A stretch of 52,319 nucleotides of DNA from Bacilli bacterium (GTDB taxonomy: Bacteria > Bacillota_I > Bacilli_A > RFN20 > CAG-826). This document shows, piece after piece, positions 4,270-39,212 of this stretch. Under the pieces are notes generated by a model. That model had not been told where the DNA came from. It ran no database searches and worked only from the letters and a program-made list of their open reading frames with translations. Each line of letters starts with the position of its first letter. The first letter of the stretch is position 1. Position numbers and translations under genes: made by a program. The DNA is taken from the NCBI GenBank assembly GCA_017534425.1, contig JAFXWB010000065.1, positions 1 through 52,319 of the forward strand, in the 5' to 3' direction.

Positions 4270-4824
4270 ATGAGAGGATTAATGATATTAGCAGATGGTT
4301 TCGAAGATACGGAAGCTTTAACAACAAGAGATGTTTTAACAAGAGCTGGTTTTGAAATAAAAACTTGCTCAATCACTGACAGATTAGAAGTTCAATCAAG
4401 TTTTGGAGTACACGTTCTAGCAGATGCACTTCTAAAACTAATGTTCGACTTAGAACTTTATGATTTTATCATCCTTCCAGGCGGAGGAAGAGGCACAAGA
4501 AACTTAGCTCAATGCGAATTCTTGAAAGCATACTTGGATCACTTCTTACTTCATAACAAATTAGTTTGTGCAATCTGTGCAGCGCCTATGGTCTTAGGTC
4601 AATATGGTTATCTTGAAAATAAGAAATATACTTGTTTTGCAGGTTGCAACGAAGGAATTAGAGGAAACTTCACTGGTAAAGAAATTGAAAGAGATGGAAA
4701 CATCATTACCGCTAGATCAATGGCTTATTCAATTCCCTTTGCACTTGAAATTATTGACTATTTAGTTGGTTCTGAAGTAAAAGAAAAAGTCCTTATTGGA
4801 CTTCAAGGGCAAGTAGCCAAATAA
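4270..4824 (+). CDS. DJ-1/PfpI (YajL-like) family protein
   Basis: 184 residues from ATG 4270, preceded by AAGAGGT; the longer upstream reading runs into the divergent lipoprotein gene and is rejected. DJ-1/ThiJ fold: the conserved acidic residue in LADGFEDTEA (residues ~7-16), the LPGGGRGTRNL loop, and the nucleophile-elbow cysteine in CAICAAPMVLG. Family members act as deglycases, chaperones or redox sensors; which applies is unknown. The stop abuts the stop of the convergent ATP-grasp gene with no gap. Confidence 0.85.
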   Translation: MRGLMILADGFEDTEALTTRDVLTRAGFEIKTCSITDRLEVQSSFGVHVLADALLKLMFDLELYDFIILPGGGRGTRNLAQCEFLKAYLDHFLLHNKLVCAICAAPMVLGQYGYLENKKYTCFAGCNEGIRGNFTGKEIERDGNIITARSMAYSIPFALEIIDYLVGSEVKEKVLIGLQGQVAK

Positions 4825-37243: not shown

Positions 37244-37681
37244 TTATTTTAATTCAGATTTTATTTGATTTGATCCAGCTACATTTTTGGTACATTTGTG
37301 ATTAGAAATTAATAGCAATGACGGATACCCTAAAATGTAAATATCCCCAGGATTTTCCGCATTAATTAACTTTTTCGAGTCACTTGTAAGCTGATCTTTA
37401 TTGCTCCCTTTCACAAAATAAATGTCACCTCGATCTAAGGCTTTTTCGATGATGTAATTCTTCAGTTCTCCGCAATGAGTACATGTTGTCGAATAAATAT
37501 AAACATAATACCTTTCATCCATGACATCAAATATTGAATCCCAAGTTAATTCATAATCTAAAACTTCACTATAATCATGGCTTGTTGGTATTAAAATTGT
37601 TTCTTTAGTTTTTTCAATGTCTTTATTTTCAAAATTACAACCCGACATTATTAATAATGGTATTAAAAATATTCTTTTCAT
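37244..37681 (-). CDS. Lipoprotein with a thioredoxin-like CXXC motif
   Basis: 145 residues. Lipobox LIMSGC at residues 10-15. The mature domain contains YVYIYSTTCTHCGELKNYI (CTHC, residues ~67-70), the pattern of a thioredoxin-fold active site, and DIYILGYPSLLLIS, with a cis-Pro in GYPS. A membrane-anchored thiol/disulfide protein or a reductase for extracellular disulfides is a fair reading. AGGAG before the ATG. Its start faces sRNA copy 1 (divergent). Confidence 0.75.
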   Translation of the reverse strand: MKRIFLIPLLIMSGCNFENKDIEKTKETILIPTSHDYSEVLDYELTWDSIFDVMDERYYVYIYSTTCTHCGELKNYIIEKALDRGDIYFVKGSNKDQLTSDSKKLINAENPGDIYILGYPSLLLISNHKCTKNVAGSNQIKSELK

Positions 37682-37698: not shown

Positions 37699-37797
37699 TT
37701 GCAGTAAATACACTTTCTTTGTATAATATTAAAGTTAGTGTTTGCTCGCTTAGTCCCGAAAGCCCAAGTTTAGTAGGCTTTACACTAACTTTTTTTA
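37699..37797 (+). ncRNA. Candidate small RNA, copy 1
   Basis: Promoter TTGCAG 37699-37704, 17-nt spacer, TATAAT 37722-37727, with the start expected at ~37732-37734. There an 11-bp outer stem begins (37731-37741 with 37782-37792). It encloses a weak small hairpin and a 6-bp AAAGCC/GGCTTT hairpin with an 11-nt loop (37759-37781). T7 at 37790-37796 ends it. Size about 65 nt. No ORF. Its 3' end overlaps the stop codon of the antisense ORF 37785-38087. Confidence 0.6.
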
Positions 37798-38087
37798 TTT
37801 CTATTTGTTAAATACTCTTCAATTTGTTGCAAATCTTCTTCAGATAAATGGAATCTTGAAAGTAATTGACCCCTCGTTCTTATGGGGTCATTTCTCAAAT
37901 ATTTTCTTACATAGGATTTTATTGAACTTTCGGGGTCAATATTTTGTTTGAGCTTTATATACCTGTTTTTGTTTGTTGGGCTTTGTGTAACCTCTAGATT
38001 TTTCCATGTTCTTTCATTGCTATCTATTTCAATACTAGGATGGAATTTAGTTGCCCTATTTCTATAGATTTTCATATTCTTTTTCAT
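37785..38087 (-). CDS. Small conserved-looking hypothetical protein
   Basis: 100 residues if started at the Met at 38087, which is 8 nt from AGGAG; the Met at 38093 is only 2 nt from it. Basic N-terminus; HPSIEIDSNERTWKNLEVTQ, RYIKLKQNIDP and SYVRKYLRNDPIRTRGQLL, then an acidic helical C-terminus. The pattern resembles short uncharacterised Firmicutes proteins with a SYV-K/R-K-x-R block, which I know only as hypothetical. The TAG stop lies in the stem of sRNA copy 1. Flanked by two RNA elements. Function unknown. Confidence 0.55.
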   Translation of the reverse strand: MKKNMKIYRNRATKFHPSIEIDSNERTWKNLEVTQSPTNKNRYIKLKQNIDPESSIKSYVRKYLRNDPIRTRGQLLSRFHLSEEDLQQIEEYLTNRNKKS

Positions 38088-38108
38088 TTTCATAACTCCT
38101 TTATTTAC

Positions 38109-38207
38109 TTGTTTGGTGTGGCAATAAATGTAATAATGTTTAAGTTAGTGTTTGCTGGGTATCCAGATAAAGCCTATTCATTTGTGGTTTTACACTAACT
38201 TTTTTAT
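38109..38207 (+). ncRNA. Candidate small RNA, copy 2
   Basis: Same architecture as copy 1 in the same spacing: TTGTTT 38109-38114, 17-nt spacer, AATAAT 38132-38137, outer 10-bp stem 38142-38151 with 38192-38201, CTGG-GTAT-CCAG hairpin (38155-38166), AAAGCC/GGTTTT hairpin (38169-38191), then T6 (38200-38205). Outer stem identical to copy 1, loops diverged, and the second stem keeps pairing through a G-U. The arms of each copy span exactly 60 nt. Confidence 0.6.
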
Positions 38208-38311: not shown

Positions 38312-38318
38312 ATTGTTA

Positions 38319-39212
38319 ATGGGTTGGTTTTATAAAAAAGAAACATTAATCAGGACTATATGTTTTATGGCGTTCTTTGTCGCTATAAATGTGATCTGTT
38401 CTTTTTTAACAACCGTTTTGCCTCTTCTTAGCATTATTCTAATAATCTTTCTTCCACTGACATCAGCTCTTGTAGAAGTAATGTGTAAAGATAGATGGTT
38501 TCCAATATATGCAGTTGCAACTATTGGCTTATCTATTGTTGTTTCATTATCTTCAATTGATTTCACGATTTTCTATATCGTTCCATCAATATTTACCGGA
38601 TACATTTTCGGCCTATTTTGCAAACACAATTTGCCTAACATGTTCGCTATCTTTTTGGCAGCCATAATCCAAACAGTTTTGTCATTTGTGTTTATCCCAC
38701 TTTTACAATTAATCACTGGAACAAATTTAATCGATTTTATCGTAAAAATTCTCAAGATTTCCAATAGATTTTGGTTTGATTCGGTTCTTCTCTTACTTTT
38801 CTTTTTAGTTGCTTTGATGCAGGCCATTTTGTCTTTTATTGTGGTGCAAAACGAACTTAATAAATTTGGCCAAAAAAGTGAATGTAAATACAATCAAGAA
38901 CGCATTGCTGCTTTTACAACATTAGGATCGGCTTTGCTATCTGCCGTATTCTCCTTGTTTTATATGCCGTTATGTTATCTCTTTATTGGAATTGCTTATT
39001 ACTTTGCCGTATTCACAGTCATCTTCCAGGTTCAATCTAAAAACAAATTCTGTCTTATTGCTGATGGCACATCTTTATTAATTGGTGTCGTTTTATTTGC
39101 TGCATTAAATCAGTATATTAAAGACGACGTAGAATTTTCTTTATTTGCGATCACGCCTGGTCTTATTTCCGTTGTTTCTATTTGCTATTCCTTCTTGAAG
39201 AAGTCTGAGTAA
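38319..39212 (+). CDS. Polytopic membrane protein
   Basis: 297 residues from MGWFYKKETL with about eight TM helices in two halves separated by a polar segment (NELNKFGQKSECKYNQERI, ~190-208). No catalytic motif. Length and layout resemble DUF2232/YybS-like or ECF-S-like integral membrane proteins, but there is not enough to decide. First gene of a three-gene membrane cluster; the second gene has its own promoter inside the end of this one. Confidence 0.6.
   Translation: MGWFYKKETLIRTICFMAFFVAINVICSFLTTVLPLLSIILIIFLPLTSALVEVMCKDRWFPIYAVATIGLSIVVSLSSIDFTIFYIVPSIFTGYIFGLFCKHNLPNMFAIFLAAIIQTVLSFVFIPLLQLITGTNLIDFIVKILKISNRFWFDSVLLLLFFLVALMQAILSFIVVQNELNKFGQKSECKYNQERIAAFTTLGSALLSAVFSLFYMPLCYLFIGIAYYFAVFTVIFQVQSKNKFCLIADGTSLLIGVVLFAALNQYIKDDVEFSLFAITPGLISVVSICYSFLKKSE

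Follow-up and report, generated by a model that had tools for sequence, protein, structure and literature searches.

A small structured RNA convergent with a predicted MazF-fold protein in uncultured gut Bacilli: a probable RNA-antitoxin module

The locus and its two RNA elements

The window analysed in this study is the whole of positions 1-52,319 (52,319 nucleotides) of contig JAFXWB010000065.1 from assembly GCA_017534425.1, a Bacilli bacterium (RFN20; CAG-826) with a genome of 1.34 Mb. The features considered are the following.

37244..37681, minus strand: lipoprotein-like thioredoxin-fold protein, divergent neighbour (weak match to Pfam Thioredoxin, E 0.003, below the cut-off)
37699..37727, plus strand: promoter of copy 1, TTGCAG (37699), 17-nt spacer, TATAAT (37722); 9/12 to consensus, predicted start at the outer stem
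37732..37796, plus strand: RNA copy 1, proposed antitoxin RNA (from the sequence, covariance-model matches in relatives and covariation); outer stem 37732-37741/37782-37791, inner stem 37759-37764/37776-37781, T7 tail 37790-37796
37785..38087, minus strand: predicted MazF-fold protein of 100 aa, proposed endoribonuclease toxin (AlphaFold2 and Foldseek); alternative ATG at 38093 (102 aa)
38109..38137, plus strand: weak promoter of copy 2, TTGTTT (38109), 17-nt spacer, AATAAT (38132); 8/12 to consensus
38142..38205, plus strand: RNA copy 2, orphan paralogue (from the sequence and a match to the refined model R2, E 1.2e-12); outer stem 38142-38151/38192-38201, hairpin 1 38155-38158/38163-38166, inner stem 38169-38174/38186-38191, T6 tail 38200-38205

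The two plus-strand elements described in the first-pass annotation can be read directly in the sequence. Copies 1 (37732-37791) and 2 (38142-38201) have the same 10-bp outer arms, AAGTTAGTGT and ACACTAACTT, over a span of 60 nt, an inner stem led by AAAGCC, and a tail of T7 (copy 1) or T6 (copy 2). Copy 1 lies over the stop codon of the ORF at 37785-38087, whose final codons fall under the copy 1 terminator. The arm pattern occurs at two sites in the whole 1.34-Mb genome, both of them in the window, and a reversed control gave 0. Fold z-scores were -2.25 for copy 1 and -3.29 for copy 2, and hairpin 1, well formed in copy 2 (CTGG/CCAG), has just 3 bp in copy 1. The -35/-10 pairs with a 17-nt spacer proposed ahead of each outer stem were found in both copies; that of copy 1 is good, while that of copy 2 is mediocre and the weaker of the two, since it scores 8/12 against 9/12. 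A 299-aa membrane-protein-like ORF without a Pfam or NCBIfam match (38313-39212, plus strand) lies just past copy 2.

Covariation and promoters in the RNA family

Rfam returned nothing at the gathering threshold for the two window RNAs, and permissive Rfam scans of ten related loci matched no family at these RNAs. Related genomes were searched with covariance models. The first model, built from five RNA copies, gave more copies within the genus, and the refined one (R2) gave 29 copies in 22 of the 224 genomes of the bacterial family, from 7 genera. Among the 19 distinct aligned copies, 86% of the pair cells are paired, compared with 33-45% when the partners are slid. Two-sided changes occur at 10 of the 20 pairs, in 27 cells against 9.6 after shuffling (0/500), and compensatory changes were found in all three stems. 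As the alignment had been fitted to the model, hairpin 1 was also tested without any alignment: it is a perfect 4-bp helix in 16 of the 19 distinct copies, against 2.8 expected, with 7 different helices in use. Window copy 1, with its 3 bp, is one of the three copies lacking it.

The promoter-like signal across the family loci peaks sharply at the outer stem; a score of at least 9/12 falls exactly there in 46% of 61 loci, compared with 0-10% at other offsets. At every locus of class A, one of several RNA sequence classes, there is one unit of ~60-70 nt per gene and no tandem repeats. The first-pass annotation had taken the elements for self-contained small structured RNA genes, a view that conservation of the terminator stem alone would have spoken against. 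Since the internal stems covary, and since relatives add a promoter peak and further copies, that view is strongly supported, and both small RNA elements are real members of a structured RNA family.

The convergent ORF and its predicted fold

The ORF at 37785-38087 has no match in Pfam or NCBIfam. Its start at 38087 is preferred to that at 38093 because an AGGAG Shine-Dalgarno sequence with 8-nt spacing fits it better. A protein search with the longer form (37785-38093) found homologues of 59-62% identity at loci L004 and L005, with the same RNA over their 3' ends. Further RNA copies thus do sit beside homologues of the 100-residue ORF, a point that the first-pass annotation had proposed to check. 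A profile built from nine homologues outlines an unnamed family of basic proteins of ~100 aa, present in 74 of the 279 genomes of the order, with a patchy distribution and up to four copies. The family is thin in other bacterial families according to a class-level search, and a phylum-wide sample contained no members outside the class. No relatives were found in viral contigs for the queries tried, or in phage and plasmid records for the divergent family members tried. All genomes are metagenome-assembled, and most of the close relatives that have a name are Bacilli of the rumen.

An AlphaFold2 model of the ORF product, made with 36 family members, has a pLDDT of 91.5 and a pTM of 0.82. Each of the best 50 Foldseek matches in the PDB is a MazF/PemK endoribonuclease or a complex of one (probability 1.00, TM 0.5-0.7, E-values to MazF structures of 2e-3 to 4e-2), and the matches among viral models agree with MazF. 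Modelling of another, divergent member from a separate alignment gave the same result, with only MazF among the best 50 matches. PF02452 matched none of the 36 family members, and an hhalign comparison of the family with MazF was not significant (probability 0.3%). Going by the predicted fold alone, the family appears to be homologous to MazF. Its alignment has an invariant H18 and near-invariant P19 and T36; in the best hhalign register H18-P19 falls on the Arg-Pro of MazF and T36 near the MazF Thr, and the catalytic Arg of MazF would apparently be His in this family. The catalytic reading is one that we infer, since sequence searches miss the link to MazF and the hhalign comparison is not significant. 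The RNA-cutting activity and toxicity of the ORF product are putative.

Linkage between the RNA and the ORF

The linkage was tested on 109 non-redundant family members by looking for a closed stem of 42-88 nt followed by a T-run, on the opposite strand and at the stop codon. Such a structured antisense RNA is found at 80 of the 109 family ORFs (73%) and at 21 of 244 other ORFs from the same loci (8.6%), by a test that is not perfectly strict, as shuffled flanks score 20%; one of the 21 positives is the RNA family itself, at L025. None of the 24 canonical PemK/MazF genes of the same bacterial family has a convergent RNA. About a quarter of the family loci fail the strict test, and the members at L125 and L131 (genus g189, in the distant bacterial family f27) are seemingly without a convergent RNA and possibly use a different antitoxin. 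Across the RNA sequence classes, RNA similarity tracks protein similarity (0/500 permutations). The coding region is overlapped by a median of 13 nt, and in a sister class (L007, L036 and L038) the RNA lies wholly within a C-terminal extension of the ORF. Complementarity of the RNAs to the toxin translation starts shows no excess (mean z -0.07). No conserved protein antitoxin was found upstream of the toxin, where the ORFs are heterogeneous and the largest cluster holds 4 of 91.

The first-pass annotation had stressed the ORF divergent to each RNA and had thought of a possible duplicated regulator/target module. The former emphasis was not borne out, as the pairing that evolution keeps joins each RNA to the ORF that converges on its 3' end. 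The latter holds in part: copy 1 is paired with the convergent ORF at 37785-38087, whereas copy 2 is an orphan RNA. The divergent neighbour at 37244-37681 is probably a bystander, judging from relatives in which other genes take its place beside the RNA. A reading of the RNA as a regulator of ORF145 was set aside, ORF145 not being conserved with it. Nor are the elements read as 5' leaders transcribed from the minus strand into the divergent ORFs: conservation of the T-tract is confined to the plus strand, and the divergent gene varies (L004, L005, L024, L025). Integron attC sites were also rejected: the arm polarity (5' GTTAGTG...CACTAAC 3') is wrong for the attC consensus, and T-tails and promoters are conserved.

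RNAs without a toxin

The 29 class A RNAs comprise 20 with an intact toxin gene, 3 with a decayed one, 5 with none and 1 at a contig end, so that 8 of the 28 that could be judged lack an intact toxin. The decayed genes carry an in-frame stop (L024), a frameshift (L190) and an internal deletion (L191). The reverse case has a single example, L015, where R2 matches nothing at an intact toxin of the class A subfamily; the C-terminal extension of that protein may also hide an RNA. An RNA that outlives the toxin is what would be expected of an antitoxin. No toxin ORF lies at the 3' end of copy 2; similar orphans are found at L021, L025, L180 and L188. The layout of the window, with RNA flanking the toxin on both sides, is repeated at L045/L188 (genome G180).

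Proposed module and alternatives

Because the ORF has a MazF fold, as predicted, we regard an RNA-antitoxin/MazF-fold toxin module, type III-like in its working and differently built, as the best reading of the locus and a probable one. The ORF at 37785-38087 would encode a MazF-fold endoribonuclease toxin, and the convergent gene would give one ~65-nt RNA, from its own promoter, with an outer stem and two inner hairpins, ended by its own terminator inside the last codons of the toxin. The RNA would most likely act as type III antitoxins do, by binding the toxin protein directly and blocking its active site, and loss of the locus or shut-off of its transcription would free the toxin. For copy 2 we propose a leftover or decoy antitoxin RNA that would have outlived its own toxin, or else a spare or anti-addiction RNA.

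Under a type I-like antisense mechanism, the RNA would pair with the toxin mRNA, at its 3' end or in its 3' UTR, and trigger decay of the message, with no binding of the protein. The RNA does converge on the ORF and covers a median of ~13 nt at the end of it; a toxin transcript reading through would be complementary to the whole RNA, and pairing in the 3' UTR would be possible. We nevertheless consider this mechanism unlikely: little of the coding region is overlapped, complementarity to the translation start shows no excess, compensatory changes keep the stems, structurally intact orphan RNAs persist away from any toxin, and the toxin is a soluble predicted MazF fold and not a hydrophobic peptide. 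Binding of the protein in trans is favoured over antisense pairing because of the start-region result, the median 13-nt overlap and the orphan copies.

The co-diversification of RNA and protein as cognates, their patchy, multicopy and defence-like distribution, and the RhuM-type candidate defence gene (PADLOC PDC-S05) adjoining two RNA copies would also suit a non-toxin role for the MazF-fold RNase, for example in a processing or defence ribonucleoprotein, with the RNA as its regulator, substrate or guide. Against this, the RNA often outlasts a decayed protein gene, which is antitoxin-like, and most MazF-fold proteins are toxins, so that we find it quite unlikely. It is very improbable that the element is a mere elaborate convergent terminator between genes, with no RNA gene at all. 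A T-tract ends every copy and hairpins are frequent between convergent genes, but the promoter peak at the stem, the covarying internal hairpins, the occurrence of the feature at just 8.6% of other genes and the existence of solitary copies all argue for more than termination.

Comparison with known systems

To our knowledge, the RNA antitoxins known so far are antisense RNAs, upstream repeats or AbiF-type leaders, and this toxin-RNA arrangement is not described in the open-access papers searched. The toxins of type III systems have a MazF-like barrel in common. Like ToxIN, CptIN and TenpIN, the proposed module would combine an RNase toxin with a structured RNA antitoxin, RNA and toxin co-diversifying, but its resemblance to a MazF-like endoribonuclease toxin is found at the level of the predicted fold only (AlphaFold2 and Foldseek, two members), and the best 50 Foldseek matches are to MazF, not to ToxN or CptN. 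In type III systems a tandemly repeated antitoxin precedes the toxin in the same operon, and a terminator lies between the two (PMC5086642). Here, in contrast, a single unrepeated RNA is found on the opposite strand, convergent with the toxin and with its own promoter. The module is not filed under type III because tandem repeats and the upstream operon order were looked for and not found.

The MazF fold of a ~100-aa toxin is shared, as predicted, with MazEF/PemIK (type II), yet there is neither MazE nor another conserved upstream protein antitoxin here, the family does not belong to PF02452, and the canonical MazF genes are without the convergent RNA (0/24). In TxpA/RatA and BsrG/SR4 (type I), a convergent small RNA lies over the 3' end of the toxin gene, as it does here; there the antisense overlap is long and the toxin a small hydrophobic peptide, unlike the soluble predicted MazF fold and ~13-nt coding overlap of this module. 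In AbiF/RCd22 (abiF motif RNA, RF03085), a structured ncRNA neutralises a toxic protein by direct binding (PMC12373285). The present pair would resemble it in joining a structured RNA to a toxic protein, with neutralisation that we infer, but the AbiF protein is Abi_2/Cas13-related and its RNA lies upstream, and the window RNA has no Rfam match.

On sequence grounds, the arrangement is one that recurs across many uncultured gut Bacilli. We give about even chances to its being a distinct architecture: a large unnamed MazF-fold toxin family in which every member has its own RNA antitoxin, encoded convergently as a single unit, transcribed independently and folded in a class-specific way. Several of the pairs would form ~0.7-kb cassettes stacked in tandem upstream of comFA. 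If the module is as proposed, it would provide a compact RNA-protein pair, of which nature offers many cognate variants, for studies of specificity. It would also annotate a protein and RNA family that current libraries miss and that about one in four of the order's sampled genomes contain.

Genomic neighbours and comFA arrays

The RNA copies at L024 and L025 adjoin RhuM-family genes (PADLOC PDC-S05), and L024 also has a HipA-like kinase gene. Unrelated small RNA-like units without an ORF, each with a TTTAATAT-type promoter, stems and a T-tail, are found at L004:1310-1392, on the minus strand of L024 at 1680-1610, and at L006 just upstream of its RNA.

At five loci (L200, L035, L037, L205 and L005), an intact comFA-like helicase gene is preceded by a tandem series of class A modules. 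The modules are separated from one another by partial copies of the comFA 5' end that stop in the P-loop codons (GGATCA|CCAAAAAC). L200:1849-5847 (genome G218) contains four comFA fragments at a spacing of ~700-800 bp, with different MazF-like toxins between them. These arrays suggest repeated insertion of a cassette that restores the 5' end of the gene, and recall the idea that mobile elements target competence genes (PMC4774983). They would bear on how addictive cassettes build up at such genes. Two further small MazF-like ORFs lie in the L200 array, at 5710-5310 (GGHPGQI..) and 3395-3070 (NKHPGLIV..); the former has a different structured RNA at its 3' end, of which an extra solitary copy lies near 4430-4490. 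At L053, L061 and L065, class D toxin modules are located directly 3' of comEC-like genes, a second competence gene.
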